Shown in pieces: positions 471 to 51,152 of a stretch of DNA of 64,000 nt (position 1 is its first letter; each line of letters opens with the position of its first letter). The DNA comes from Bacteroidetes bacterium HGW-Bacteroidetes-7. GTDB lineage: Bacteria; Bacteroidota; Bacteroidia; Bacteroidales; UBA932. The notes beneath the pieces are model-generated. The model searched no databases. It was not told the DNA's origin and saw only the letters and a program-made list of their open reading frames with translations. Both the position numbers and the translations under genes were made by a program. The stretch lies in NCBI GenBank assembly GCA_002842465.1, contig PHDA01000003.1:1-64000 (forward strand), read 5' to 3'.

Positions 471-485
471 GTACCCGGAGCCGGG
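471..485. repeat. Left attachment site (attL core)
   Basis: GTACCCGGAGCCGGG here is identical to 9837-9851, where it forms the acceptor/T-arm end of tRNA-Leu(CAA). Flanking bases differ on both sides (C470 against G9836; T486 against A9852), so the shared core is exactly 15 bp. This is the displaced tRNA 3' fragment expected at the far end of an element integrated by a tRNA-targeting tyrosine recombinase. Confidence 0.85.
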
Positions 486-634
486 TATGAAAATCGATAA
501 TAGACAATTTTCTTTGAGCATCTTTGAAACTCTTTTAAAATCTATTAAAATGCAGAAATACAGATTTATGTAGTATTGTTATTGATTATTACCTGCTACA
601 CTTGTTGTCAATAGTGATCATTTATATTCATTTA

Positions 635-654
635 ACTGGTGCAAACTGGTGCAA
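635..654 (+). repeat. Paired direct repeats, candidate integrase arm sites (left)
   Basis: ACTGGTGCAA occurs twice in tandem (635-644 and 645-654) immediately upstream of the integrase promoter. The same 9-mer CTGGTGCAA is paired again at 9761-9780 near the other end of the element, and an inverted TTGCACCA lies at 7687-7694. Paired short repeats at both ends of a tyrosine-recombinase element are what arm-type binding sites look like. Their overlap with the integrase control region also allows autoregulation. Confidence 0.5.
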
Positions 655-655
655 A

Positions 656-679
656 GTTTTATAAAACTTTTTACCTTTG
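656..679 (+). promoter_or_regulatory. Integrase promoter with palindromic operator candidate
   Basis: TACCTTTG at 672-679 matches the Bacteroidota -7 consensus TAnnTTTG and lies 24 bases before the integrase ATG at 704. Just upstream is a perfect 12-bp palindrome, GTTTTATAAAAC (656-667), placed between the -33 and -7 regions, a natural repressor position. No clear -33 TTG is visible, so the promoter may be weak or need an activator. Confidence 0.5.
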
Positions 680-703
680 AATAACCGCAACAATCAATTT
701 ATC

Positions 704-2029
704 ATGGCAACAGTTACAGCATTTATCAGAGTACCTTCAAACAAGAAAGGTATTGCTAGTGTCCGTTTTAGGCTCCGAGACGGAGAGCAGGTTCAATTAT
801 TTTACAAAAGTCGTCTCAAAGTGAATCCTAGTTTATGGGATAACGCAAAGCAAGAAATCAAAGCAAAAGTAGTATTTGATACCTCAAAGAAAGCCGAGTT
901 TCATAATGGGATAGCCTATATTAAAAACTTGATGCTTGACATTTATGCAAATACTTCAGACAAAAAAAGCCTTACATCAGAGAAGCTTCAGTCAGAGATT
1001 GAGAAACGAATTAATCCAGATGCACCTGGTATGGATCCAGATAAAATGTCATTCATGGATTTATTTGATGAATTCATTCAAAATAGGAAGATATCTGATG
1101 TGAGGAAAAATAATTTTCGTGTCCTTTTCAGGGCATTACAACGATTTGAGTTATACAAACGGCTTTCAGGTTCTAAGTGGTTTGCTTTTGATTTTGACTC
1201 GTTTAATTCGTCTCTTTTGGGCGAAATTGAAGCATTCCTAAAGAGTGAACACAAGCTGGCTGAAAAGTACAAACAGATTTATGAAGAAGTATCGGAATCC
1301 AGGAAGCCTGCCCAACGCGGACAGAATACGATTAATGATTTAATGACAAAATTCCGAACCTTCTTTATATGGGCTAACAATCAGGGCTTCACAAAGAACA
1401 ATCCTTTCACAAAGTTCAGTATTGAAGAGTGTGTTTACGGTACTCCCTATTATATCACTATTGCTGAAAGGAATCATTTGCACAATACCGACTTTTCAGC
1501 AAGGCCACAGCTTGGTATTCAGAAGGATATTTTTGTTTTTCAGTGCCTGATCGGTTGCAGGGTTGGAGATCTTTATAAAATGACCAGGGCAAATATTATT
1601 AACGGAGCTATTGAGTACATTCCAAGAAAAACTAAAGATGGCCGGCCGATAACTGTTCGGGTTCCTTTGAACACCATAGCACGTGAGATCCTGGATAAGT
1701 ACAAAGACTATGAAGGACCGAGGCTTTTCCCTTTCATTTCAGGGCAGAAGTACAATGATGCAATTAAAGACATGTTCGCATTTGCCGATCTTACCAGGGT
1801 TGTTACTGTTATTAATCCAAAAACCAGATTGGAAGAAAAAAGACCGATAAACGAAGTAGCAAGTTCACACCTTGCCAGAAGGTGTTTTGTCGGCAATCTG
1901 TACAAACAAGTTAAAGATCCGAATCTAGTCGGTGTACTTACCGGTCACAAAGAGGGCTCAAAAGCATTTAACCGTTATCGGGAAATTGATGAAGATATAA
2001 AGATAGACCTTGTAAAACTTATTGAGTAA
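704..2029 (+). CDS. Tyrosine recombinase / integrase
   Basis: This 441-residue site-specific recombinase should integrate and excise the element at tRNA-Leu. The N-terminal part is the short arm-binding domain typical of Bacteroidota integrases (MATVTAFIRVP start, then a LWDNAKQEIK region), followed by a SAM-like core-binding domain and the C-terminal catalytic domain. Catalytic signatures are visible: Arg in CLIGCRVGDLYKM, Lys in the beta-hairpin RKTKDGRPI, HLARR (His-xx-Arg), TGHKEGSKA (second His) and the nucleophile Tyr in FNRYREI near the C-terminus. I chose the ATG at 704 because an upstream in-frame TTG at 677 lies inside the -7 box. The gene sits next to attL and faces inward, as is usual for such islands. 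The catalytic set is complete, so it is probably active. Confidence 0.93.
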   Translation: MATVTAFIRVPSNKKGIASVRFRLRDGEQVQLFYKSRLKVNPSLWDNAKQEIKAKVVFDTSKKAEFHNGIAYIKNLMLDIYANTSDKKSLTSEKLQSEIEKRINPDAPGMDPDKMSFMDLFDEFIQNRKISDVRKNNFRVLFRALQRFELYKRLSGSKWFAFDFDSFNSSLLGEIEAFLKSEHKLAEKYKQIYEEVSESRKPAQRGQNTINDLMTKFRTFFIWANNQGFTKNNPFTKFSIEECVYGTPYYITIAERNHLHNTDFSARPQLGIQKDIFVFQCLIGCRVGDLYKMTRANIINGAIEYIPRKTKDGRPITVRVPLNTIAREILDKYKDYEGPRLFPFISGQKYNDAIKDMFAFADLTRVVTVINPKTRLEEKRPINEVASSHLARRCFVGNLYKQVKDPNLVGVLTGHKEGSKAFNRYREIDEDIKIDLVKLIE

Positions 2030-2080
2030 TGAGAGATATGATTGAGCAGTTAATGGCGTAGTCTTATCTGTTAAAAGAGG

Positions 2081-3010
2081 CTAAATTTCTTCAGAAGAAT
2101 CTAGAGGGAAGTCGATTAGCTGATCTAAATCTCTTTGCTTATGAGCATGAATTTTTCCAATTGTATAAGACTTATTAAAGTATACTTTAACTCCCGGATC
2201 ATATTCTTGTCGTATTGTCAGATCTACCTCTAAAATATCTCCTTTTGCAAATTTTTCACCATTGTCGATCATTTTTTGAAATGACTCATCTTTGATTTTG
2301 GCCGTGATTTTGTTTCTCTTGTAATAAAAATCCCATTTTAATAAGGGGTCGAAAGAAGGCCTGATAATAAAAAGCGTTGCTGACTCTGTGACTAGCTTAT
2401 CTCCTCCTTCTTCGGTTTCGGAAATTACAGAAAGTTCGTCGAATTCCTCTCGATCAGCCTTGAATATGGATTTGTTATGCTTATCTAAAACCTCATATCC
2501 GGTAATTGAATCGTCTGAATTTAGTGTGTCAAAGTTTCTAGATATCGCCTCTTTGATTGATTCGTCATTTGCATAAATGTGAAAAACTTGATTGCTGAAA
2601 ATCGTGACGTCTCCATCATTATTTACGACTTCGTAGTTGTCACCTTTTTTAGTGTGAGATTTTGGGGCCTTGCCTTTTAAGAATTTTTTTAAATTGTGTA
2701 ATCCAGCATATATGGTAATTATGCTAGCAGCTAAGTTAATATTTCCTTGAGTAAACAACCCCTTTGCCACACCTCCCATTAGCTCAATCAGATCTAGGTC
2801 AATAATGAAGCTTCCTTTCTCAAGAGCGTTAATTTTTATTTGAATTCGCTTTCCAGAGTCAAGGTGCCTGTTAATCCCTTGAATAATTGTTGTCGTTTGA
2901 GAAAGGCTATTAATAAGTACGCCAGCGTCAATTTGATGTTGCAAACCATCATACTTGATTTTGAATGAGGTGTCTATGTTGTTTGTTTCCATCTCAGATG
3001 TGATTGACAT
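2081..3010 (-). CDS. Unknown 309-residue protein, divergent accessory gene
   Basis: I do not recognise a characterised function. The protein has an N-terminal part with a GSFIIDLDLIE motif, a central hydrophobic helix (INLAASIITIYAGL, about residues 91-104), a short basic stretch, and a hydrophilic, probably beta-rich C-terminal half. Similar-looking proteins of about 300 residues occur as cargo in bacterial islands, but I cannot place it in a named family with confidence. It is the only gene of the element on the minus strand, with its own promoter at 3021-3051, between the integrase and the regulatory genes. Satellites and prophages often keep accessory or anti-phage genes in such a slot, so a defence, exclusion or repressor role is possible; this is inference. 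The ATG at 3010 leaves almost no leader; Met7 (2992) is an alternative start. Confidence 0.7.
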   Translation of the reverse strand: MSITSEMETNNIDTSFKIKYDGLQHQIDAGVLINSLSQTTTIIQGINRHLDSGKRIQIKINALEKGSFIIDLDLIELMGGVAKGLFTQGNINLAASIITIYAGLHNLKKFLKGKAPKSHTKKGDNYEVVNNDGDVTIFSNQVFHIYANDESIKEAISRNFDTLNSDDSITGYEVLDKHNKSIFKADREEFDELSVISETEEGGDKLVTESATLFIIRPSFDPLLKWDFYYKRNKITAKIKDESFQKMIDNGEKFAKGDILEVDLTIRQEYDPGVKVYFNKSYTIGKIHAHKQRDLDQLIDFPLDSSEEI

Positions 3011-3350
3011 AAGGTTTGTGCAAATCTAATAAAAATTAACACTTCCGTCAATTATGATTTTGCTGGATTAATAAACCAAATTTGCGTTATTAAAAAATAT
3101 TCATTAAATACAAAGAGAAAGGGTTTTTATCAATCAAAAATCGATAAATGTTGCGCTTTAAATAGATCATTCCGTAGGTCTGTTTATGGCGCATCTCTTT
3201 TTTCCGACGCTAAGTAATGCAAAATCAAGTATATGAGGGCTTATAAAAGTGCTTTGAATCGCATAACTTTTTAATAACTTCTAACGCACTTTGCAACATT
3301 AGAGTGTAGTAGTTAGTAGCTTTGCAGAGTACATCAACAACAATCGCATT
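3011..3350. promoter_or_regulatory. Divergent control region of the element
   Basis: This 340-base non-coding stretch separates the leftward unknown gene from the rightward HTH operon. On the minus strand, TAGATTTG (3021-3028) with TTG at 3049-3051 and a 20-base spacer forms a Bacteroidota promoter. On the plus strand, TAGCTTTG (3317-3324) with TTG at 3291-3293 forms one for the operon starting at 3351. The AT-rich middle part shows no tRNA, terminator or clear repeat family. It is the obvious lysis/lysogeny-like switch region of the element. Confidence 0.5.
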
Positions 3351-3572
3351 ATGAAGGATTTGAACAAAAATGACAGACTAGAATTGCCTCAAAATTTCAT
3401 TTGTGGGCTTAAAGGGTTAGCCAGGTTTCTTGGTGTTTGTCACAATACAGCTTTAAGAATTAAAAAGGAAAACCGCGTTTCTTACTTTCAGATTGGACGC
3501 AAAATTTATTTTGACCCAGATCAGGTTTTAAAGGAAATGAGTAGATCCAATGAAAACATTAAAAGTAAATAA
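3351..3572 (+). CDS. DUF3853-like excisionase/HTH protein
   Basis: This 73-residue protein resembles the DUF3853 family of small Bacteroidota mobile-element proteins. The core GLKGLARFLGVCHNTALRIKK is a MerR/excisionase-type winged helix-turn-helix, followed by the wing (VSYFQIGRKIYFDPDQV) that such proteins use to grip the minor groove. It probably acts as excisionase or regulator, binding near the att sites. It is first in an operon with the next HTH gene (2 bases between them). It follows a good TAGCTTTG promoter. Confidence 0.75.
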   Translation: MKDLNKNDRLELPQNFICGLKGLARFLGVCHNTALRIKKENRVSYFQIGRKIYFDPDQVLKEMSRSNENIKSK

Positions 3573-3574
3573 TC

Positions 3575-3880
3575 ATGAAGATTACTGAACTGATATCTGA
3601 AGGAGCAAATGTTACCATTTCCATTGGTTTGAAAGAACTCCAGGAGTGGCATCGGGAGATCATGGAGGATTCGCGCAAGCAGATTGTAAAGCAGGCCCTG
3701 GAGAATGCGGAGGAGCAATATTTGAGTCCAACAGAGGCATGCAAAATGCTTTCCGTTAGTAGAGCCACGCTCTCACGCTGGCAAAGCAAGGAATATCTTG
3801 TGCCGATAATGGTGGGCGGTCGCTGTAAGTATCGCATAAGCGAGATACAATCGATTTTGAACAGGAAAAACAGAATTTGA
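3575..3880 (+). CDS. HTH_17-type DNA-binding protein
   Basis: This 101-residue protein has an N-terminal helical section (about residues 1-45) and a C-terminal MerR-like helix-turn-helix: LSPTEACKMLSVSRATLSRW, then the wing MVGGRCKYRISEIQSIL. This is the excisionase/AlpA-like fold used by mobile elements for excision or transcription control. Together with the preceding gene it gives the element two small HTH proteins, which could divide the work between excisionase and regulator. It is separated by 2 bases from the upstream gene and by 1 base from the downstream gene, so all three are probably co-transcribed. Confidence 0.75.
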   Translation: MKITELISEGANVTISIGLKELQEWHREIMEDSRKQIVKQALENAEEQYLSPTEACKMLSVSRATLSRWQSKEYLVPIMVGGRCKYRISEIQSILNRKNRI

Positions 3881-3881
3881 T

Positions 3882-4148
3882 ATGAATGCAACCGGAAACA
3901 TGTCGAATACAATCGAATTAGATTCATTACCCGGTACTCGAAAGGAAGATTCGATCATTAATGAAGTTTATAGGAATCTGGCAAAAGGCCGTGTATTAAC
4001 AACACTTGATGCAGTCAAAAGTAACAGAACAGTCTGTCTGGGTAAATATATCTCCCTTTTGCGAAACAAATACCAAATTGCAATCAAGGATAAATGGATT
4101 GAACTCGAAAATCAGAAGCGAATAAAACAATATTGGCTTGCTAAATAG
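3882..4148 (+). CDS. Winged-helix (HTH_39-like) protein
   Basis: This is an 88-residue hydrophilic protein. The C-terminal two thirds (GRVLTTLDAVKSNRTVCLGK, then ISLLRNKYQIAIKDKWIELE, ending KQYWLAK) match the pattern of the small phage winged-helix domain HTH_39: a start helix, a threonine-containing turn, an L-R-x-x-Y-x-I strand and an aromatic end. The family is found beside phage replication and regulatory genes, which fits here, just before the replication gene. Its exact role (replication accessory or transcription factor) is unknown. Confidence 0.6.
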   Translation: MNATGNMSNTIELDSLPGTRKEDSIINEVYRNLAKGRVLTTLDAVKSNRTVCLGKYISLLRNKYQIAIKDKWIELENQKRIKQYWLAK

Positions 4149-4174
4149 TTAATCCACATCATGCTAACAAGGTT

Positions 4175-4921
4175 ATGGAAAACGGATATTTCAAGTGTTA
4201 TAGAAGCATTCTAGACAGTCAGGTTTTTGCACATCCTGTCGCCCTGAAAATTTGGGTGTGGTGTCTTGCAAAGGCTAATTTTCGCGATAAATATGTGTCT
4301 TTAAAAGTTGGCAAAGGTATGACGACCATACACGTTAAAGCTGGCCAGTTTTTATTTGGTCGTTTTAAAGCTGAAAATGAACTTGGAATTGATGGATCAA
4401 CCATTTACAAGTGGATGCAAAAGTTTGCTTCGGATGCTTTTGGAAATATGATTATCCTTGAAAGTAACAACCAATATACGCTCGTAACAATCACAAATTG
4501 GGCTATTTATCAAGACGAAGGAGAGCATGGTGTGACAACCAAAGGACAACCAAAGGACAACCATGTAACAGCCGAAGAACATCCGTGTAACACAACTAAT
4601 AAAGAAAAGAATATAAAGAATGATAATAATGTTAAAGAGAGATCTGAAATCGCTAAGCGCTTTCAGCCTCCTACAGAAGAAGAAGTAAAAGCATATTGTT
4701 TTGAAAAGGGTTTTGATGTAGATCCAGAAAATTTTGTTGCTTTTTATGCTTCTAAAGGCTGGATGGTTGGAAGCAATAAAATGAAAGATTGGAAAGCAGC
4801 TGTTGTAACCTGGAGCAAAAGACCAAAAAAAAACGGAGATACAAGGACTCATATAAACTCTTATTGGGACAAAGAAATTCTGTGCACACCTGGTGATGAC
4901 AGAGGTTCCAGTACACTTTAA
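4175..4921 (+). CDS. Phage-type replication initiation protein
   Basis: This 248-residue protein probably starts replication of the excised element. The N-terminal half is the replisome-organizer winged helix seen in phage O/DnaD-like proteins (GYFKCYRSILDSQVFAHP; IDGSTIYKWMQKF; YTLVTITNWAIYQ). The middle (about residues 120-165) is low-complexity and hydrophilic. The C-terminal tail (PTEEEVKAYCFEKG ... GWMVGSNKMKDWKAAVVTW) is the short domain that recurs at the end of many phage initiators and probably contacts the host helicase loader. The coding sequence of the middle section contains iteron-like repeats and an AT-rich stretch (4535-4640), like the lambda O gene, where the origin lies inside the initiator gene. 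No helicase or primase is encoded nearby, so host or helper enzymes would be needed. Confidence 0.8.
   Translation: MENGYFKCYRSILDSQVFAHPVALKIWVWCLAKANFRDKYVSLKVGKGMTTIHVKAGQFLFGRFKAENELGIDGSTIYKWMQKFASDAFGNMIILESNNQYTLVTITNWAIYQDEGEHGVTTKGQPKDNHVTAEEHPCNTTNKEKNIKNDNNVKERSEIAKRFQPPTEEEVKAYCFEKGFDVDPENFVAFYASKGWMVGSNKMKDWKAAVVTWSKRPKKNGDTRTHINSYWDKEILCTPGDDRGSSTL
4535..4640 (+). other. Candidate replication origin inside the replication gene
   Basis: Two and a half tandem copies of the 11-mer ACAACCAAAGG (4535-4545, 4546-4556, partial 4557-4562) are followed by two related TGTAACA-containing words (about 4564-4570 and 4585-4591). Next comes an AT-rich stretch (about 4593-4636; 7 G or C in 44 bases). 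Iterons followed by an unwinding region inside the initiator gene are the layout of lambdoid and SaPI-type origins. The repeats encode an unstructured linker, so coding constraint alone does not explain them. Function is inferred only. Confidence 0.4.
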
Positions 4922-4959
4922 TATATTTTTCAATTCATAATCTCATAATCTCAAATACC

Positions 4960-5406
4960 ATGAAAAAGCAAAATTCAAAAAAAGAACCCCAATACATTTT
5001 CATTGGCAGCATTGATTTATTTGCATCTCGCTTAGTGGAAAATATCGGCGAAATCGCTTCAAATGTCGGTTGGTCTCCTGTAAAAGAAGTTCTTCTGGCT
5101 TCAAAAATCATGCTGAAGCAAGAGTCTATAATCACACAACAGGTCGTTCATCAAGACGGAATCAGCACAGTTTTTATTATTCAGGTTGGTAATCAAAACG
5201 GGGCACCTATTGAAGCGATTGAATATGCCGGAGAAGAAATAGTTGAAAAGCTAACAGAAACAGGGCCAGATTCAGTGCCTACACGCTTTGTCGTAGTTTG
5301 CCCGATCATTAGCGAGAATGTTGTTAAAATGTCCCAAAAGCGCAAAATACCGCTAAGTTTTTTAATGGTCAACAATGATCTTTGCACATATTGGGAGTCA
5401 ATTTAA
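4960..5406 (+). CDS. Unknown 148-residue element protein
   Basis: No family is recognised. The N-terminus is basic (MKKQNSKKEP), the body is an alpha/beta mix with strands QYIFIGSID, STVFIIQVG and TRFVVVCPII, and there is no signal peptide or membrane segment. The start follows the replication gene by 38 bases. Its end is 28 bases before the ATG of the TerS-like gene, so it probably belongs to the same transcript. The position between replication and packaging-type genes suggests a late or regulatory function, but the sequence gives no direct evidence. Confidence 0.6.
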   Translation: MKKQNSKKEPQYIFIGSIDLFASRLVENIGEIASNVGWSPVKEVLLASKIMLKQESIITQQVVHQDGISTVFIIQVGNQNGAPIEAIEYAGEEIVEKLTETGPDSVPTRFVVVCPIISENVVKMSQKRKIPLSFLMVNNDLCTYWESI

Positions 5407-5434
5407 GGTAGATTTATTGTTTAATTCACTTACT

Positions 5435-5956
5435 ATGGCAAAGTACAGCAAGAAGATTGTCAAGAGAATAACGGACTTGATTAAGAAGGACACCTATACC
5501 ATTGCTGAAATATGCTCAATGTCAGGCATTCATCCAGATACTTACTATGATTGGATGAGGACGAAATCCGAGTTTTCCGAAGCTATTACGCGCGCGCGCG
5601 AGGAATTCAGAAAATCAACCCTTGTCGAGTGCGAAAAATCTCTTATAAAGCTGATCAAAGGTTATGACTATGAAGAAAGAAAAACGGTCTATATTGATTC
5701 AAGGGGGCCAGAAGGAGTGAGCAAGCCGAAAATCAAGGAGCAGACTACAACAAAGAAGCATGTTTCCCCTTCGCTTGGAGCAATTATCCATTTCCAGACA
5801 AACCATGATCCGAAGAATTGGAATAATCGTCAATATGTTGAGGTTGCCGGAAAAGGCGGGAAAGACTTCTTTGCATCACTGACTGATGAAGAGTTGAATA
5901 GTAGGATTAAAGAGCTTGAATCAAAACTTAATGTAAAACTAAAAACGGAACAATAA
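5435..5956 (+). CDS. Terminase-small-subunit-like HTH protein
   Basis: This 173-residue protein has an N-terminal helix-turn-helix (TYTIAEICSMSGIHPDTYYDW) followed by a helical segment (SEAITRAREEFRKSTLVECEKSLIKLIKG) and a hydrophilic C-terminal half that ends in a short coiled region. The layout matches phBC6A51-type small terminase or transposase-like HTH proteins of Bacteroidota phages, which recognise the packaging site. No large terminase follows. In phage satellites a lone TerS is the classic device for redirecting a helper phage's packaging motor. The ATG at 5435 is preferred to an upstream start at 5375 that would overlap the previous gene. The alternative is a plain DNA-binding regulator. 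Confidence 0.6.
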   Translation: MAKYSKKIVKRITDLIKKDTYTIAEICSMSGIHPDTYYDWMRTKSEFSEAITRAREEFRKSTLVECEKSLIKLIKGYDYEERKTVYIDSRGPEGVSKPKIKEQTTTKKHVSPSLGAIIHFQTNHDPKNWNNRQYVEVAGKGGKDFFASLTDEELNSRIKELESKLNVKLKTEQ

Positions 5957-5960
5957 GGAT

Positions 5961-6428
5961 ATGAGCATTCATCCAAAATTTCAGCCTAGCGATGTTAGAA
6001 CCCGATTTGATAGGTTTATTGAGGCCATTGAAAAACGACAGGTTCTCCGACTTCAGTACCTCGGCGAGATGTGTGTCAAGCATGCACGTGAGGTGCCTGC
6101 TTCTATCGGCTTCACAGACCAGACAGGCAATTTAAGATCTTCAATCGGCTATATGATATTCAAAAACGGAGTGGCTATACACGAAGGTTTTGAGCAAGTC
6201 GGAGAAGGGTCTGAAGGTGTTATGGCTGGCCAGGCATTGGCTAAAAGGGTAGGATCAAAACATACCGAAGGGATTGCCCTTGTCGTGACAGCCGGGATGA
6301 AATACGCGATACACCTTGAGTCGAAGGGACGTGATGTTCTTACTTCGGCCGAGAGCCTTGCAAAGCAAGAACTGCCAAAAATGGTTGAGGAACTGAAAAA
6401 GAATATTAGAAAAGCATTAACCGAATAA
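5961..6428 (+). CDS. HK97-gp10-like head-tail/tail completion protein
   Basis: This 155-residue protein shows the pattern of the HK97 gp10 family, which joins the tail to the head in siphoviruses. The visible parts are an N-terminal helix, FTDQTGNLRSSIGYMIFKNG (the DxTGxLRxSI motif), a beta section and VTAGMKYAIHLESKGRDVL (the YAxxxExGxxxL motif), then a C-terminal helix. It lies 4 bases after the TerS-like gene and 2 bases before the fibre-like gene, so the three form one unit. It is the only clear virion-morphogenesis gene in the element. Finding it without portal or capsid genes is odd. It may be a remnant, or it may help a helper phage's particle accept the element. Confidence 0.7.
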   Translation: MSIHPKFQPSDVRTRFDRFIEAIEKRQVLRLQYLGEMCVKHAREVPASIGFTDQTGNLRSSIGYMIFKNGVAIHEGFEQVGEGSEGVMAGQALAKRVGSKHTEGIALVVTAGMKYAIHLESKGRDVLTSAESLAKQELPKMVEELKKNIRKALTE

Positions 6429-6430
6429 AC

Positions 6431-7606
6431 ATGAAATCAGGTATTATCACATTGGCACAATTATCAAGTACAGGGGAGCCTGTCTATACTGGGCCTGTTT
6501 CAAGCAGCATTCTTGCAGATAATTTCACTAATTACAATACTTTCAGCTTTAATAGCATTTCAAGTAATGAAATTGAGGTAATATTGCCCAGCAAAAGCGA
6601 TATTTTTAACAAATTTGGATTTTCAAATGTTATCAAAAATATTCATATTCTCATTCCTTACGATACTGAAGGATCAATTGTAATAAAGGGGGTTAACGAA
6701 GGAATTATTGTTGATGCGAATAATACAGTATTAGGGAAAGGGGATTACGGATCAATTCCATTAAGCGCCTCAAATTATATAATTTTAGAATACGATTCAG
6801 GGTCATATACTGTTAAGCCAACTATTAAACAAAATCTGAAATCACAAATTGATAACACGGACCTAGCAGCAGTAACCATTGAAAGCGACGAAAGTATTTA
6901 TTCGTCAGATGATATCATAACAGGTTCTGTCCCCGATAACATCAGTAGCCTACAAGCTTTATTTATAAATAAAAAGCAACAAGGATACTACGAAACTAGG
7001 CAGCGGACAGATACTTATTACTCATATTCAGAATGGGAGTATGCAGGATCTCCACAGCCGGCAAGTTTTTATTTTGTTTGGAATGAAGAGTCACAACTAG
7101 AAGAACTTCATCATATTGAAGTCATTGTTTCGTGGCCAGAATTTGTTCCTAATCAATTTTCGGTTAATTATGGAGTTCTGGCAACTGTTGAAGGTGCTGA
7201 AACAAACATTGCTTTTGAAGCCGTAAAAGGGAAAATCAAGGCAACTTCCGGGGGTGTCGTAAGCTGGGATACCGACTATATCGGTCAGGCATATACAGCT
7301 GTAATCGAAGATAAAATACACTTGACAAACTGCTTTTTATTTACAAGCATCAGCGCATCTTCAGTAATTGTCCGGCTGCCTTCAGCTTCAATTATTAATG
7401 CAAAAACAACTCTTCCAGTATCGTTCATTATTCACATAACTATTTCCCACTCTACGAATAATTCAATCAGGTTAACAAGTGTGGTAAATGGACAAATAGT
7501 CAATAATAATGGATCAGATGTGCCATATATTGATTTATCAAAATGTGATTCACTAATGCTGAATTATACAAATGGTAAGTATTATATATTATCAATTTTA
7601 CAGTAA
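6431..7606 (+). CDS. Fibre-like protein with duplicated domain
   Basis: This 391-residue protein is rich in Ser, Asn, Ile and Thr and predicted to be nearly all beta, with no signal peptide. The N-terminal section (about 34-125) and the C-terminal section (about 296-391) look homologous to each other. Each has an F-x-F-x-SIS start, then an I-x-V-x-LPS strand, an I-x-I-x-I-P/S strand, an asparagine-rich G-x-IV-x-N hairpin and a closing L-x-Y-x-x-G-x-Y strand. Repeated beta domains of this sort are typical of phage fibres and base-plate decorations. The gene directly follows the gp10-like gene. No enzymatic motif is seen. A role as virion decoration or adhesin is inference. Confidence 0.5.
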   Translation: MKSGIITLAQLSSTGEPVYTGPVSSSILADNFTNYNTFSFNSISSNEIEVILPSKSDIFNKFGFSNVIKNIHILIPYDTEGSIVIKGVNEGIIVDANNTVLGKGDYGSIPLSASNYIILEYDSGSYTVKPTIKQNLKSQIDNTDLAAVTIESDESIYSSDDIITGSVPDNISSLQALFINKKQQGYYETRQRTDTYYSYSEWEYAGSPQPASFYFVWNEESQLEELHHIEVIVSWPEFVPNQFSVNYGVLATVEGAETNIAFEAVKGKIKATSGGVVSWDTDYIGQAYTAVIEDKIHLTNCFLFTSISASSVIVRLPSASIINAKTTLPVSFIIHITISHSTNNSIRLTSVVNGQIVNNNGSDVPYIDLSKCDSLMLNYTNGKYYILSILQ

Positions 7607-7741
7607 GTAATTACTAAGGTTCAAACCGGTAATGAGTTATAACTATATACTGATTGCCAAGATTAAAGCAGAATAATCATTATAACTTGCACCAAAATGC
7701 AACAAAAACAGAAGTTTCACATTTTTTAACAAAAAACTTTT
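7607..7741. other. Intergenic stretch with inverted arm-type site
   Basis: TTGCACCA at 7687-7694 is the reverse complement of the TGGTGCAA core found paired at both ends of the element. No terminator or strong TAnnTTTG box is evident. The site may be a further integrase/excisionase site or chance (an 8-mer). Confidence 0.25.
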
Positions 7742-8575
7742 ATGAGTAGAATTTTGAAAACAACATCGAGTGAAAAGATATTGATTCACTTTGATAAAGA
7801 AGCAGCAGAGCGAAAGGCTGAATTAATCCATGCATGTGCTGGTCAGCTTAATCATGTGTTAGCTGAATTCGGAAAGCTAAATGAAAAGGCAAAAATCAAC
7901 TCCATTGAAGAACTGAAAACATTTTTTGGGAACCAATCGGGTACAGGTCTATGTAGGCCAGCAAAAGATGCAATAAAAGCCCTTTTCATTGAAAAACTCA
8001 TTCCGGGAGGTACAATCAACGGATTGCCGGTTAGATCTGATTTTATTCAGATACCTGATTTGTCAGGAGTGTTCCGGGCTGTTGAGAAGTGCCACCCTCA
8101 AGTGGCCCTTTACCTAAATGAAGGTGATTTTGAGCTCAAGGATTGTCTGGTTACAGTTGTTGAGAGTGTTGAAGATCGGGCAAAAGAATACTTTTCAATT
8201 TACGCGGAGACTGATGCAGAGATTCAGAGACTTGAAGCAGCTAAAGACCTGATATTAGCAGTGAATAACATATGCAACTTGCTGCCGGAGAATCCTTACC
8301 TTAAATCAAAAATAAATTTACTCGGTGAGTTTTCTTCAATTATTGAAATTGATGATAACGGCAAGTTTGAGGTTAATCCATTCTTTGTCAAGCAAGGAAC
8401 TGTTGTTAATCCGTACATTTCTGAATCATTTGGGACTGTTGCCAATAATGTGTCAGCAGAGAATGGTAATCAGTTTTGTAATGAATATCTTACTAATTTG
8501 ATGAAAGAAGCAGATTTTGATACCTCTGAAGATAATGAAAGGGGAGAGATTTCTGAAGAATATTTTTTAATTTAA
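7742..8575 (+). CDS. Unknown 277-residue element protein
   Basis: No family is recognised. The protein is largely helical, with likely coiled segments near residues 15-55 (EAAERKAELIHACAGQLNHV) and 150-180, no signal peptide and no membrane segment. It ends in a run of acidic residues (DTSEDNERGEISEE). A gap of 135 bases separates it from the fibre-like gene, so it may have its own promoter. Without catalytic motifs it could be a structural, scaffolding-like or regulatory protein of the element. Confidence 0.6.
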   Translation: MSRILKTTSSEKILIHFDKEAAERKAELIHACAGQLNHVLAEFGKLNEKAKINSIEELKTFFGNQSGTGLCRPAKDAIKALFIEKLIPGGTINGLPVRSDFIQIPDLSGVFRAVEKCHPQVALYLNEGDFELKDCLVTVVESVEDRAKEYFSIYAETDAEIQRLEAAKDLILAVNNICNLLPENPYLKSKINLLGEFSSIIEIDDNGKFEVNPFFVKQGTVVNPYISESFGTVANNVSAENGNQFCNEYLTNLMKEADFDTSEDNERGEISEEYFLI

Positions 8576-8749
8576 TTATGAACCTAACAGAACATGATTA
8601 AGATTCAAGGATGCATGGAGTGAAGTGTATCACTGTAGTACATTAATGTATTGAAAAACAGTACAAAAGTAATAAAAAAATTAAAATACAATATTGGTTT
8701 TTAAATTTCTTTGGCCCAATTTTGCTCCTGTAATTAAAAAAAATCGATT
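8576..8749. other. AT-rich intergenic stretch in the element
   Basis: I see no gene, clear promoter or strong hairpin in these 174 bases. A short imperfect inverted region (GTACATTAATGTATTG, about 8637-8652) is present. The rest is A/T-rich. Confidence 0.3.
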
Positions 8750-8959
8750 ATGAAAAAGACAAAAAAACTATCTTGGGAAGAAGCAAATGAAGCAATTCGT
8801 CAAATTCATAGGGATCATGACAATAAATTGCTTGTTGATTTATGCAGAGAAGCAGCCGATAAAGGCGCAAAAGAAGCGCTTGAAGTGATGAATGATTCTT
8901 TCAGCGACGAAGGATCAATAAAGGCGCATGGTTATCCAATAGGAATAAAAATTCAATAA
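8750..8959 (+). CDS. Unknown 69-residue protein
   Basis: This is a small hydrophilic protein with a basic N-terminus (MKKTKKLSWEEANEAI) and a helical body. No domain is recognised. It starts with ATG and is followed 10 bases later by another small gene, so the two are probably co-transcribed. Small paired unknowns near the right end are typical of phage-like elements, where they can be regulators or anti-host peptides. The sequence alone gives no function. Confidence 0.5.
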   Translation: MKKTKKLSWEEANEAIRQIHRDHDNKLLVDLCREAADKGAKEALEVMNDSFSDEGSIKAHGYPIGIKIQ

Positions 8960-8969
8960 TAAAGCAGCT

Positions 8970-9212
8970 ATGAAAGCAAACGATGAAATGGTTATCAGTC
9001 AGATCGATTCAATTCTAACTGATTTTTCTGCAAAGGGTGTTAAAGAAAAATTAGACTTTTCTTTCACTCAAGTACTTCACATGTCAGACGGAATGCTTGG
9101 TTCTGACTTGGCTGAAATGTTTGAACTATTTGGCCGGATATCAGATATATTTCAAATTAGAAGAGAGGCAGTTGAACAATTTTTTACTGATAATCAAGTT
9201 GCACACGATTAG
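8970..9212 (+). CDS. Unknown 80-residue protein
   Basis: This acidic, helical protein (MVISQIDSILTDFSAKG; LGSDLAEMFELFGRISDIFQ) has no recognised domain, signal peptide or membrane helix. It lies 10 bases after the preceding small gene, an operon-like arrangement that could also suit a two-gene antidote system, although neither product looks like a known toxin. A promoter-like box for a possible small RNA begins 22 bases after its stop. Confidence 0.5.
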   Translation: MKANDEMVISQIDSILTDFSAKGVKEKLDFSFTQVLHMSDGMLGSDLAEMFELFGRISDIFQIRREAVEQFFTDNQVAHD

Positions 9213-9248
9213 ATGAAATATGTTTTTATGATATTAACTTTGTAATGC

Positions 9249-9325
9249 GATTAAACAGATCGCTTATTCAAAATGCGGAAGTTTGCCCTTAATTTGCAAG
9301 GCCCGACAGAATGTGGGGCCTTGTT
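9249..9325 (+). ncRNA. Candidate small RNA of the element
   Basis: TAACTTTG at 9235-9242 matches the -7 consensus, so transcription should start near 9249, and a strong terminator ends at about 9325. There is no open frame of useful length between them. A transcript of about 75-80 nt would have a possible 5' hairpin (GCGAT/ATCGC, 9247-9263) and the terminator stem at 9297-9323. No family is recognised. It is either a short regulatory RNA or a leader/attenuator for the next gene. Confidence 0.35.
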
Positions 9326-9327
9326 TA
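9297..9327 (+). terminator. Rho-independent terminator
   Basis: CAAGGCCC (9297-9304) pairs perfectly with GGGCCTTG (9316-9323) across an 11-base loop, followed by TTTA. It ends the candidate small RNA and separates it from the next promoter. Confidence 0.65.
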
Positions 9328-9358
9328 TTGTAGAAAATCATTGTTTTGCATAACTTTG
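9328..9358 (+). promoter_or_regulatory. Promoter for the last gene of the element
   Basis: TTG at 9328-9330 and TAACTTTG at 9351-9358 are 20 bases apart, a good Bacteroidota promoter. The ATG at 9392 follows after a leader of about 27 bases. Confidence 0.6.
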
Positions 9359-9391
9359 TAGAGCTGCATTAGTTAAATCATTCAATCAATC

Positions 9392-9748
9392 ATGTCGGTT
9401 ACCATAAATAAGTATGATATGTTTCGCTTTTACAGGGGTGAAGAGATCAATCCTTTTGACAAAGAAAAACAAAACGCACAGCATCAGTTCTGGTTTTATG
9501 AATCAGTTTTTGAAAGGGAATTTCTCAAGAATGACAGCTCTGACTGGTACTCATTTTTTTCCATGCATGATTTGCAAAAAGATTTTTTGCAAATCCTGTC
9601 TGAATCTGATTATGAAAGGCCAACACAAGGCAAGAAAAAACAGGTATTTGAATTGTGGTTAACTTACCTGTTTAAATACAAGCTTTACCCTGAATATGGG
9701 GGAGAAAACAAAGACGAAAAGGTGTATTACTCTTTTGAATTGAACTAA
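9392..9748 (+). CDS. Unknown 118-residue protein at the right end
   Basis: No family is recognised. The protein is soluble and very rich in aromatic residues (MFRFYRGEEINPFDKE; HQFWFYESVFEREF; SDWYSFFSMHDL; FELWLTYLFKYKLYPEYGG), with no signal peptide or membrane segment. It has its own good promoter just after a terminator, so it is expressed independently of the rest, possibly also in the integrated state. Genes in this position beside attR are often cargo. A second open frame overlapping its first two thirds (9414-9662) was judged a shadow because it lacks its own signals. Confidence 0.6.
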   Translation: MSVTINKYDMFRFYRGEEINPFDKEKQNAQHQFWFYESVFEREFLKNDSSDWYSFFSMHDLQKDFLQILSESDYERPTQGKKKQVFELWLTYLFKYKLYPEYGGENKDEKVYYSFELN

Positions 9749-9760
9749 AGATCATTCTAT

Positions 9761-9780
9761 CTGGTGCAATTCTGGTGCAA
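9761..9780 (+). repeat. Paired direct repeats, candidate integrase arm sites (right)
   Basis: CTGGTGCAA occurs at 9761-9769 and 9772-9780, 57 bases inside attR. The same 9-mer is paired at 636-654 near attL. The spacing is 11 bases here and 10 on the left. The same orientation at both ends is consistent with arm-type sites bound by the integrase in the intasome. Confidence 0.5.
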
Positions 9781-9785
9781 GGGCC

Positions 9786-9820
9786 AAATAAAAAACCTGT
9801 AAACGATTAATTTACAGGTT
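9786..9820 (-). terminator. Element-borne terminator for tRNA-Leu
   Basis: On the minus strand AACCTGTAAA pairs with TTTACAGGTT (plus coordinates 9811-9820 and 9794-9803) around a 7-base loop, followed by a T-rich tract (complement of 9786-9793). It lies 18 bases beyond the tRNA 3' end and replaces the terminator now stranded at 436-469. Confidence 0.7.
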
Positions 9821-9836
9821 GATTTAGTTTTAAAAG

Positions 9837-9851
9837 GTACCCGGAGCCGGG
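9837..9851. repeat. Right attachment site (attR core) in tRNA-Leu
   Basis: The 15-bp GTACCCGGAGCCGGG, identical to 471-485, includes the last 14 bases of the tRNA-Leu gene plus one base beyond. Integration therefore leaves the tRNA intact. Confidence 0.85.
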
Positions 9852-9921
9852 ATCGAACCGGCACAGCCTTGCAGCTACTGGTGTTTGAGACCAGCGCGTC
9901 TACCGATTCCGCCATCCGGGC
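9838..9921 (-). tRNA. tRNA-Leu (CAA)
   Basis: This 84-nt cloverleaf read on the minus strand has acceptor stem GCCCGGA with UCCGGGU, a D-arm (GGCGGAATCGGTAGACGC), anticodon stem CTGGT/ACCAG with loop CTCAAAC (anticodon CAA), a long class II variable arm and T-arm GCCGG/CCGGC with loop TTCGATC. The discriminator is A, followed by CC but not a full CCA. Its 3' end is the integration target of the element at 471-9851. Confidence 0.95.
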
Positions 9922-48995: not shown

Positions 48996-51152
48996 CTATT
49001 GTAACGGTTTAACAACCTCAATAAGCTCCGGCAGATCCATTCCTATCTTCTGAAGGTGCTCAACCTTTGGAACTCCGTTGTTGTTCCACCCTCTTCTGAA
49101 ATAGACAGCATCAAGCAGCTTTTCGTATTGATCTTCACGGTGCTCTCTTAATTTGGACATCTTTTGTTCAAGAGTAAGCTCTGCAGGGTTTATTCCCAAT
49201 AGTTCATTCAGCTGTTTGTCATATCTCTCCTGGCGGCTAAGATACTCCTCCTGAGTAACCGGGCCGGCTGCTCTGTATGGTTGAGCATCATACTCTCTTG
49301 TTCCAAAGCCTAGACGGATATTGAATATCTTCTGAAAATTATATACTCTTTCAGACATTTTTATCATCTCCTCCTTGTCAAATTCACGTCCGGTAACAGC
49401 CTTGAAAATTGTTACGTAGTTGTCAACATGCTCGGGAACCTTGTTTGGTTCGGGTTGCTGTGCATTGTCGGCAGGTTCAATGTCGTTCCAGCATAGTTTG
49501 CAGAAGCCGGCCAGACCAAACCATGTTCTAAAATATGGGAAGTAGTGTAGAGCTTCCGCTTTGTTTTCAAAAGTAGGAATCATGTTGTTTACCATGTCCA
49601 TAAATATAAGCCAGGCCTCATCGTGCTGCGGCCCTTTGTTGGTCATTGCGTATCCGCCCTGTTGTGCAAGAGACTCTTTTGAGAGGTACATAGAATATTC
49701 CAGACCTTTGTTCTCCATTGCAATGTCATTGATGAATTTGGCGTCACCCCAGTTATTCTCAATAAACATTTTTTTCAGACGCATTACTCCAAGTCCTGCA
49801 GTAACTCCAAATCCTTCGCCGCGAGCCATCTGGTGCAATAGCTCAAGTGATGCATTTGCATTACCCCAGGTTAGATCAACTCCACCGGTTCTTTCGGCAT
49901 TTAGAATTCCGTTATCCCAGCACTCCATAAGGAAACCGACTATGTTGCCCCAGGTAATTGTACATACACCGTAAGTGTCACAGTAGAAATTCTGCTCTAT
50001 AATGGCCAACGGATCAAAAATGGCAATATTAGAACCCAGTGCTGCAGCGTTTTCATACTCAGGACCATCTACAATCACCTTTGACCCTTTATATGGCCCG
50101 GTAGTAAGTTCGAAGTCATCAACCCCTTTTGCACAAGACATATTGCATCCAATCCAGCAGCCGTCAGGAACTCCTTGGGTAAAGTATTTTTTCCAAACCT
50201 CAAGGTCAATTTTCGGGCAATCTTTATGGTCACCGTATTTGAAGTTCATTACTGGAAGAATATCATATTTTTCAAGTACCCCCATTAGGTGGGCAGTACC
50301 AAGCTGTTTCATCTGACACTGTACATCATCAAGCTCTCTCATCTCTTTGTTGAATCGCTTGCCCCTCTCCATAATAGGCTCCATCTCGGCAACATTGTTA
50401 AAATTGCCGGTAACTTTAGGAACTTTGGCAACAATTGCTCTAACCCCTTTTTGCCTCATAAGAGTACCAAGTCCACCACGCCCTGCCTGCTTTAGCCTTA
50501 CCTTGCCACGTTTCATATCGTAGAATGTAAAGTTTAACATTCCAATCAATGAGTGCTCGGCAGCTTTGCCTGACGCAACAACAGATACATTGATTTTATC
50601 TTTTTCACTATCTGCAAACATCTCCAGGAGCTCTTCTCCCAAAAGGTGAGAGTCGTAGCTGAGCCCCTGAGGAGTTTCAAAAATCTCGACAATATGATCT
50701 GTGCCGTTGATAAACACAATTACATCTTTATTTGAAATCCCCTGCAATTCAAGGGCATCAAATCCGGCAATTTTCAGGTGAGGGCCAAAGTGGCCTCCAA
50801 CATTACTGTCAATAATCTTCTCTGTCTGAGGTGATATGGCTACAACTATCGACTTCCCGGCACCGGAATACTGTGTTATACCGCAGCATGGACCTCCGGA
50901 GATTACAATCTCATTCTCAGGGTCGCTCCACTTTGTGTTTGGCTTAACTGCATCCCAGAGCATACGAAGTCCGTAACCTTTACCGCCGATAAATTTCTCT
51001 TTAGTCTCGGGGGCAATATCTCTGACTTCAATTTTGTTGTTACCCACATTTACATACAGACTGACATCGCTGTACCCTTTATCCATTGGTTTCCATGAAT
51101 AAGGTGCCGAGGCAATTATTTTCCTGCTGTTTTTAATCTCCTGCAAGTTCAT
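48996..51152 (-). CDS. aor: Tungsten-type aldehyde ferredoxin oxidoreductase
   Basis: This 718-residue enzyme of the AOR family oxidises aldehydes (or runs the reverse with low-potential ferredoxin) at a tungsten-bis-pterin centre. The N-terminal pterin-binding domain includes FIGGKGYGLRMLWD, the SGPC-like SGGPCCGITQYSGAGKS and SNVGGHFGPHLKIAGFDAL. The [4Fe-4S] cysteines are GCWIGCNMSCAKG (about residues 329-337; C-x3-C-x3-C) with a distal Cys near residue 552 (GFCKLCWND). It is longer than the archaeal AOR (about 605) because of an N-terminal and C-terminal addition, and the variant Cys spacing hints at a subclass. The start is ATG 51152. ThiF- and ThiS-like genes diverge from it. Confidence 0.9.
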   Translation of the reverse strand: MNLQEIKNSRKIIASAPYSWKPMDKGYSDVSLYVNVGNNKIEVRDIAPETKEKFIGGKGYGLRMLWDAVKPNTKWSDPENEIVISGGPCCGITQYSGAGKSIVVAISPQTEKIIDSNVGGHFGPHLKIAGFDALELQGISNKDVIVFINGTDHIVEIFETPQGLSYDSHLLGEELLEMFADSEKDKINVSVVASGKAAEHSLIGMLNFTFYDMKRGKVRLKQAGRGGLGTLMRQKGVRAIVAKVPKVTGNFNNVAEMEPIMERGKRFNKEMRELDDVQCQMKQLGTAHLMGVLEKYDILPVMNFKYGDHKDCPKIDLEVWKKYFTQGVPDGCWIGCNMSCAKGVDDFELTTGPYKGSKVIVDGPEYENAAALGSNIAIFDPLAIIEQNFYCDTYGVCTITWGNIVGFLMECWDNGILNAERTGGVDLTWGNANASLELLHQMARGEGFGVTAGLGVMRLKKMFIENNWGDAKFINDIAMENKGLEYSMYLSKESLAQQGGYAMTNKGPQHDEAWLIFMDMVNNMIPTFENKAEALHYFPYFRTWFGLAGFCKLCWNDIEPADNAQQPEPNKVPEHVDNYVTIFKAVTGREFDKEEMIKMSERVYNFQKIFNIRLGFGTREYDAQPYRAAGPVTQEEYLSRQERYDKQLNELLGINPAELTLEQKMSKLREHREDQYEKLLDAVYFRRGWNNNGVPKVEHLQKIGMDLPELIEVVKPLQ

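Follow-up and report, generated by a model that had tools for sequence, protein, structure and literature searches.

The stretch of DNA analysed here, referred to as the window, comprises the first 64,000 nucleotides of contig PHDA01000003.1 from Bacteroidetes bacterium HGW-Bacteroidetes-7 (assembly GCA_002842465.1), a member of the order Bacteroidales. Close to its left end, preceded by 470 bases of the window, an insertion of approximately 9.4 kb (471-9836) lies at the 3' end of a tRNA-Leu(CAA) gene, bounded by 15-bp direct attachment (att) repeats, GTACCCGGAGCCGGG, that are identical at 471-485 and 9837-9851. An empty attB is found in genome G122 of the same genus, where the left flank of the window joins the same tRNA end directly. 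This flank is present there as two pieces (207-336 and 393-468, each with 78% identity), and it was unmatched in the close congener G143, which shares the tRNA and the right flank. A first-pass annotation of the window had proposed a phage satellite at 471-9851 with intact att sites in tRNA-Leu and a pair of integrase arm sites at either end, and all of these boundary features were recovered. The arm-type repeat, CTGGTGCAA, occurs twice just inside each end, placed as the arm sites of a tyrosine integrase would be, with a fifth copy far outside the element at 49830; the expected number in the window is 0.47, and five copies were reached in 0 of 100 shuffles. The GC content of the element is 36.5%, compared with 41.2% in the remainder of the window to its right. 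Like phage satellites, it is a discrete integrated element with an integrase and att sites.

Fourteen open reading frames (ORFs) within the element were taken as genes and scanned with Pfam and PHROGs. They run in the order integrase, minus-strand gene, two small helix-turn-helix (HTH) genes, a small gene, a DnaD-like initiator, a 148-amino-acid (aa) orphan, the small terminase subunit (TerS), a neck protein, two orphans, and three small genes. The features are as follows, with identities to a sister element in another species of the genus (genome G048) and to the viral contigs L002, L103, and L104 where these apply.

471-485, no strand: att direct repeat, distal copy (GTACCCGGAGCCGGG), with the identical 15 bp at 9837-9851.
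636-654, no strand: arm-type repeat pair at the left end, CTGGTGCAA twice (copies at 636 and 646).
704-2029, + strand: tyrosine integrase, 441 aa (PF13102, 1.6e-7; phrog_1, 1.6e-17; 68% to the G048-element integrase).
2081-3010, - strand: accessory gene, 309 aa, LAPAL family and defence candidate PDC-S42 (NCBIfam NF053583, 2e-53; PADLOC PDC-S42, 3e-30; phrog_3243, 1e-39).
3351-3572, + strand: small HTH protein, DUF3853 (PF12964, 1.7e-10).
3575-3880, + strand: HTH_17 protein, excisionase- or regulator-like (PF12728, 4e-8; phrog_66, 3e-8; 38% over 76 aa to the G048-element HTH protein).
3882-4148, + strand: early-region small protein, 88 aa (phrog_4973, 4e-4, unknown function).
4175-4921, + strand: DnaD-like replication initiator or helicase loader, 248 aa (phrog_2514, 1.3e-27).
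4960-5406, + strand: 148-aa protein, here only in the two tRNA-Leu elements (60% to the G048 element).
5435-5956, + strand: TerS, 173 aa (phrog_309, 5e-22; 79% to the G048 element; 48% to the TerS of Porphyromonas phage005).
5961-6428, + strand: neck protein, HK97 gp10-type head-tail joining protein, 155 aa (phrog_5377, 9e-47; phrog_5, 1e-4).
6431-7606, + strand: orphan protein, 391 aa (no Pfam, PHROG, PADLOC, or phage match; AlphaFold2 pLDDT 35.5).
7742-8575, + strand: orphan protein, 277 aa (no family at a meaningful E-value).
8622-8759, no strand: conserved block, mostly non-coding (74% over 144 alignment columns to the G048 element, L026 6079-6215).
8750-8959, + strand: small protein, 69 aa (40% over 52 aa to L002).
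8970-9212, + strand: small protein, 80 aa, kept in the G048 element (41-43%).
9392-9748, + strand: right-end protein, 118 aa, kept in the G048 element (67-69%), with relatives in viral contigs L103 (52%) and L104 (47%).
9761-9780, no strand: arm-type repeat pair at the right end, CTGGTGCAA twice (copies at 9761 and 9772).
9837-9851, no strand: att direct repeat, tRNA-Leu 3'-end copy (at this tRNA the repeat of the G048 element is 21 bp long).
9836-9921, - strand: tRNA-Leu(CAA), intact, the integration target (ARAGORN, Rfam).

Among these 14 ORFs, no match was found to the large terminase subunit (TerL), portal, major capsid protein (MCP) or other capsid protein, tail tube, lysis, conjugation, or relaxase genes. 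The genes of a self-sufficient virion are lacking, as is general for phage satellites, and because of this gene content the element would depend on a helper phage. The combination of TerS with a single part of the head-tail joint is unusual for phage satellites. On sequence grounds the element is very probably a satellite, and the fuller account, in which it is an integrated, helper-dependent phage satellite and not the remnant of a deletion, is judged likely. The first-pass annotation had listed the integrase, excisionase-like, phage-type initiator, terminase-small-subunit-like, and gp10-like morphogenesis genes and the absence of large terminase, portal, capsid, lysis, and conjugation genes, and the family matches bear this inventory out. 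Its description of 6431-7606 as fibre-like found no backing in any family, in the phages collection, or in the unusable structural model, and the minus-strand gene at 2081-3010 was absent from its list.

The assignment of the neck protein draws on two families, of which phrog_5377 is itself of unknown function and phrog_5 is labelled 'tail completion or Neck1'. Identities to related proteins are 78% in the G048 element, 71% in L002, 66% in L003, and 54-55% for a phage005 gene annotated 'neck protein'; a search of the neck profile against PDB sequences gave no match up to an E-value of 1. The neck query also matches OQ791282.1, listed in the phages collection as 'Shigella phage Henu10', just as it does Riemerella phages, with the same identity and coordinates as for ON933637; the host label of this record is doubtful.

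The neck protein was searched in 299 genomes of the family, and 16 (own genome included) have a match. In one of these, G048, the same tRNA-Leu(CAA) harbours an element of 13.8 kb with perfect 21-bp repeats at its ends. It shares with the window the integrase (68%), the 148-aa gene (60%), TerS (79%), the neck gene (78%), and two right-end genes (41-43% and 67-69%); the same virion genes are lacking, and there is no match to a tape measure protein (TMP) either. The TerS-neck block aligns without interruption from end to end, with 75% nucleotide identity over 994 columns, and the gap between the two genes is 4 bases in the window and 12 in G048, with no remnant between them. The right ends (9758-9836) are 79% identical, and an 8-base core of CTGGTGCAA has one copy at each end of the G048 element. 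The cargo is different, and includes a DnaC-like loader, a protein that weakly matches an HD domain, and an M78 peptidase with a DUF4411 protein, among others. The genes of the last pair overlap at the tRNA end of the element and run opposite to its other genes (L026 2327-4056); the peptidase has weak similarity to RmrA/CapP, and the two are likely an accessory or defence pair.

Substitution patterns were compared between the two elements. For TerS, the ratio of nonsynonymous to synonymous substitution rates (dN/dS) is 0.11 by NG86 and 0.19 by YN00, the YN00 value being available for the TerS pair only. By NG86 the ratio is 0.08 for the 148-aa gene and 0.23 for the 80-aa gene (dS exceeding 2.5), compared with 0.14 for a nearby host gene encoding a peptidase; dS is saturated for the integrase, the neck gene, and the 118-aa gene. 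Selection has maintained the TerS-neck pair. Among 25 genomes of the genus, only the integrase of G048 is close to that of the window, the next three having 38-40% identity. In the regions around these three (L182, L183, and L184, in G077, G089, and G180) no phage structural genes were recognised, and the integrases of G077 and G089 lie near a gene pair that by eye resembles replication genes. A close relative with the same att-bounded element and full capsid and terminase genes had been named in the first-pass annotation as the observation that would point to a deletion derivative; in the 25 genomes, no full prophage with this integrase was found.

Two full phages show what kind of virus supplied these genes. 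Phage005b_ATCC49417 (PP754928) and a prophage in G048 (G048:C8) have TerS (48-51%) and neck (40-55%) proteins homologous to those of the element but, unlike it, both have TerL, portal, capsid, and tail genes. In phage005, TerS (17187) and neck (33830) flank exactly the genes that are missing from the element. The G048:C8 prophage has an integrase of its own, TerS (51%), TerL (phrog_38), portal and MCP genes, a neck gene (42%), a lysis-type region, and a tape measure of 1443 aa; several of its virion genes were named by homology or by eye. Phages of the phage005 or G048:C8 type are the kind of source of the TerS and neck genes and a plausible type of helper. A reversed 6.7-kb cluster in PP754928 (L007 23730-30464), between the minor and major capsid genes, has a second integrase and an anti-repressor by annotation, and could be an element nested inside the phage.

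More distant relatives extend the same gene economy beyond the family. The TerS protein was searched in 398 genomes of the family and 393 of the order, with matches in 9 and 13, respectively (own genome included). One match, in G622 from another Bacteroidales family, lies in an 18.0-kb element located at the 3' end of tRNA-Arg(TCT), with bounding 15-bp repeats and an integrase at the far end. Genes for TerS, another TerS-type protein, the neck, and a tape measure of 1216 aa follow one another; TerL, portal, and capsid were not matched in 20 of its 23 picked ORFs, the scan leaving aside three small ORFs of 62-82 aa. The 16.6-kb contig L139 encodes integrase, HTH, DnaD, and DnaB proteins, neck followed by a 986-aa tape measure and tail completion, and TerS on the other strand. 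Contig L050 has two TerS genes and a 184-aa in-frame fusion (6118-6672) that joins the N-terminal part of the neck to the end of a tape measure, its C-terminal part. L069, L070, and L072 represent a single element in which two TerS-type genes occur and the available sequence downstream of them shows no TerL; tape-measure pieces are present in L069 and L072. A 237-aa gene of G048, L139, and L050 was tried as a marker for further members and recovered only the same two contigs, with no record in the phages collection. The 10.1-kb contig L002 (IMGVR_UViG_3300010965_000090) has MCP and neck genes followed, on the other strand, by TerS, DnaB-like, and DnaD-like genes, and is possibly a capsid-forming satellite of Bacteroidota with open ends.

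The company that TerS genes keep was assessed by a census of 72 TerS-like places, 47 of them strong. TerL or portal lies within 2.5 kb in 37 of the strong places, a neck gene stands instead in three (the window, G048, and G622), neither is found in six, and one is at a contig end; among the 25 weaker places, three have TerL or portal and 22 have neither. The places are not independent: they include several near-copies, and a single TerS is common to L069, L070, and L072. Duplicate loci were excluded from the ORF set. Some TerL queries were derived from census loci, and without self-matches the count is 36 of 47, the 37th (L037) having a PHROG TerL match; L045 was scored as 'neither' solely since its TerL is beyond 2.5 kb. 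Of the 28 places from the search of the order, 18 hold a solitary TerS-like gene of approximately 160-290 aa in the chromosomes of one family (G711, nine places; G774, four; G425, three; G538, two; L145-L147 and L152-L166), with terminase, portal, and neck unmatched in the available 1.2-1.4 kb downstream.

The histories of the two genes differ in phylogenetic trees. The TerS proteins of the window, G048, L139, and L050 form one clade with support of 97/85 in a tree of 35 rows from which the long-branched G622 was excluded, together with L050b and L070. All TerS trees left aside near-copies (L048, L049, L051, L052, and L064) and fragments or duplicates (L069, L071, and L072), as well as matches above an E-value of 1e-37 (39-row tree) or 1e-50 (other trees), and the window and L050b rows were shortened by 20 residues to a later start. 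In the neck tree, a well-supported branch splits the members of the TerS clade: the window and G048 lie with L002, phage005, and a group of Prevotellaceae phages, L139 and L050 are placed with phages L046 and L053, and G622 takes a third position that is unsure. This tree excluded L027 (the same gene as L010) and the weak matches L022 and L023, and the L050 fusion was trimmed to its first 112 residues. For these few elements, the simplest reading of the trees is a satellite TerS lineage with necks acquired from various phages.

In the mechanism that we propose, a phage of the phage005 or G048:C8 type would infect or be induced, the HTH proteins would permit excision, and the DnaD-like protein would initiate replication. 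In phage-inducible chromosomal islands (PICIs) that encode a TerS, this protein steers satellite DNA to the TerL of the helper. The TerS of the window element would bind its own packaging site and pass it to the helper TerL, bringing satellite DNA into helper heads, and such redirection of packaging is judged probable. The neck protein would then substitute for that of the helper in joining these heads to helper tails, giving hybrid particles, or alternatively it would spare particles from an inhibitor of the helper neck; its incorporation into particles is possible, and we put it forward tentatively. Because a tape-measure gene comes after the neck in G622 and L139, the altered part of the virion would be the neck and tail and not the capsid. 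By analogy, the nearest tested precedent is PLE11, one of the PICI-like elements (PLEs) of Vibrio cholerae, whose own tape measure is reported to enter its particles, to accompany a shortening of the tails, and to be required for transfer to be efficient (PMC12987554).

A number of observations weigh against this account. In the genome of the window, which is 92.4% complete, no TerL was found with PF03237, phrog_2, or a two-sequence TerL profile. As phrog_2 also misses the TerL of G048:C8 (phrog_38), it failed as a test and its blank result says little; no resident helper is seen, and an infecting phage would serve. Comparison of the satellites with the G048 prophage for a common packaging site gave only coding homology and short matches, and no packaging-redirection, capsid-resizing, or inhibitor genes of known kinds were recognised. 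The limits of the G622 element are drawn from its repeats, and L139 and L050 are contigs with open ends. At its end L139 has a protease gene with weak matches to head-maturation proteases (best 2e-9), its best family being phrog_11747 (unknown, 3e-92). With G622 included, support for the TerS clade falls to 85/77 (39 rows) or 75/33 (38 rows). The supported branches of the neck tree force three label changes, which could equal one gain and two losses.

Different models may be considered for the same set of genes. The main rival also takes the element as a satellite and makes the neck a weapon that, as a decoy, would poison the joining of heads to tails in the helper or in a competitor, in the manner of Tai and Rta, which block the assembly of tails. 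Tail-assembly inhibitors are encoded by PICIs and other satellites according to two reports (PMC11364771; PMC12987554), and an excess connector subunit could act as a dominant negative. However, the protein is homologous to phage necks over its full length (54% to phage005 and 66% to L003) and is not a fragment, and since G622 and L139 retain the neck together with a tape measure, building fits better than poisoning; we regard the decoy as unlikely. It is less likely still that the element is a cryptic prophage in which one deletion between TerS and neck and another after the neck have left a decaying remnant. As TerS and neck flank the missing genes in phage005, a single deletion would yield their junction, and the in-frame neck and tape-measure fusion of L050 is in keeping with such events. 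Against decay, the frames are open, and the TerS-neck pair is found in a second species with synonymous sites near or at saturation and amino acids conserved. The att sites and arm repeats are also intact, cargo has been exchanged, and the same economy recurs in another family. The only same-site sister that was found is another satellite-like element, in place of the intact phage counterpart that a defective prophage might have. The preference for a satellite over a deleted prophage in the first-pass annotation is upheld by this sister, by the TerS dN/dS, and by G622, and an ancient deletion is a likely origin of the satellite lineage itself.

Descent from capsid-forming PICIs (cf-PICIs) or similar satellites, with the capsid genes lost and TerS and neck retained, appears marginally less probable than a decaying prophage. 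The closest neck apart from that of G048 (71%) lies on L002, which has an MCP gene (73% to phage005) and, on the opposite strand, TerS, DnaD-like, and (by eye) DnaB-like genes; beyond its neck gene, no tail gene was recognised. However, L002 has open ends with no exact terminal repeat, its TerS is only 35% identical, and in the neck tree it stands beside the satellite pair, not inside it, with weak support (87/56). An integrative mobilizable or defence island unlinked to phages, which captured phage genes, is very improbable. The next-closest integrases of the genus, in their regions without recognised phage structural genes, and the defence-candidate gene at 2081-3010 could be read in its favour, but no relaxase or conjugation gene was matched, and TerS, neck, and the phage-type initiator stand in one run of genes on the same strand.

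Comparison with known satellites places the window element, for which a helper-dependent satellite is our preferred reading, outside each of the types compared here. P4-like satellites have Psu, Sid, delta, and the primase-helicase alpha, all of which are absent from the family matches of the 14 ORFs. PICIs are defined by a primase/Rep module and by the absence of phage structural genes other than those for packaging redirection. The element resembles PICIs in being small and att-bounded, with an integrase at one end, a regulator- or excisionase-like protein, a replication gene, TerS, and a defence-type accessory gene. It differs from them in having a DnaD-like loader in place of a primase-type Rep, in carrying a neck gene, and in lacking any recognised redirection or resizing gene of known kind. 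It is not a strict PICI, since its replication gene belongs to a different type and it carries a structural gene. The relatives found here are from Bacteroidales; PICIs, in contrast, have been reported from many Firmicutes and Gammaproteobacteria (PMC10803314). Small elements with part of a packaging and morphogenesis set are also found among cf-PICIs, some of which have putative tmp genes according to a figure legend (PMC12987554, Extended Data Fig. 10). Unlike them, the window element has no capsid, portal, or TerL, and no capsid and packaging operon of its own. Streptococcus satellite phage Javan259 (MK448388) is an annotated satellite with a TerS-like gene (28%, 3e-4), but it has an annotated terminase large subunit and no annotated neck.

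The relatives, more than the window element itself, recall PLEs. The tape measures of G622 (1216 aa) and L139 (986 aa) are shorter than those of two full phages (1357 and 1443 aa), and the PLEs are described as incorporating their own TMP and making shorter chimeric tails, which this 2026 report presents as the first such takeover of tails known among satellites (PMC12987554). In contrast, PLEs have TAC, TMP, and BhuB and exploit the contractile ICP1, a comparison made here by description only. A TMP is recognised in the relatives G622 and L139 and in neither the window nor the G048 element. Described satellite families come from Firmicutes, Gammaproteobacteria (including Vibrio), and marine and soil bacteria, as far as the passages of two sources extend (PMC10803314; PMC11389934). 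No described satellite of Bacteroidota was found in the open-licence literature, a search that did not take in subscription papers or the hosts of the marine and soil families. A preprint that names both Bacteroidota and satellites concerns, in the part consulted, marine elements with confirmed integrations that are archaeal (PMC12324425).

The label of the LAPAL family in NCBIfam, 'putative phage structural protein', disagrees with the PADLOC label of defence candidate for the protein at 2081-3010, which gave no match in the phages collection. PF12728, matched by the HTH_17 protein at 3575-3880, is the Pfam family used for AlpA in a model of phage-inducible chromosomal minimalist islands (PICMIs), and no Stl-type repressor was recognised in the element. 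The 148-aa protein is present in 2 of the 398 family genomes (own genome included), with none confirmed among viral contigs; a function was sought from a poor model (pLDDT 56.3), and the best Foldseek match, EndoMS (2.2e-4), is a lead only. The conserved block at 8622-8759 holds an exact 19-base string shared with the G048 element, the reverse strand of which is similar to the promoter motif of Bacteroidota. The string was rejected as a marker of satellites, both viral contigs that match it (L180 and L181) having no tblastn match to the queried satellite genes, and for this reason it is probably promoter-like; the block as a whole could be a promoter pair, an origin, or a packaging site.

These elements may, in a proposal that we hold more loosely than the role of the neck in particles, belong to a satellite family of the Bacteroidales that reprograms helper virions not through the capsid but through their neck and tail. 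Such a family would keep a satellite-specific TerS lineage while swapping the neck, in some members with a shortened tape measure, from local phages, and the window and G048 elements would be its most reduced members, with TerS and neck alone. Replacement of the neck from different local phages would therefore suit each satellite to the heads and tails of its helper. The genome of G048, with a satellite and a prophage of the same virion type, offers a testable pair. If the proposal is true, a second group next to the PLEs, one that keeps TerS and neck, along with the tape measure in its relatives, would show that satellites also seize the head-tail joint.

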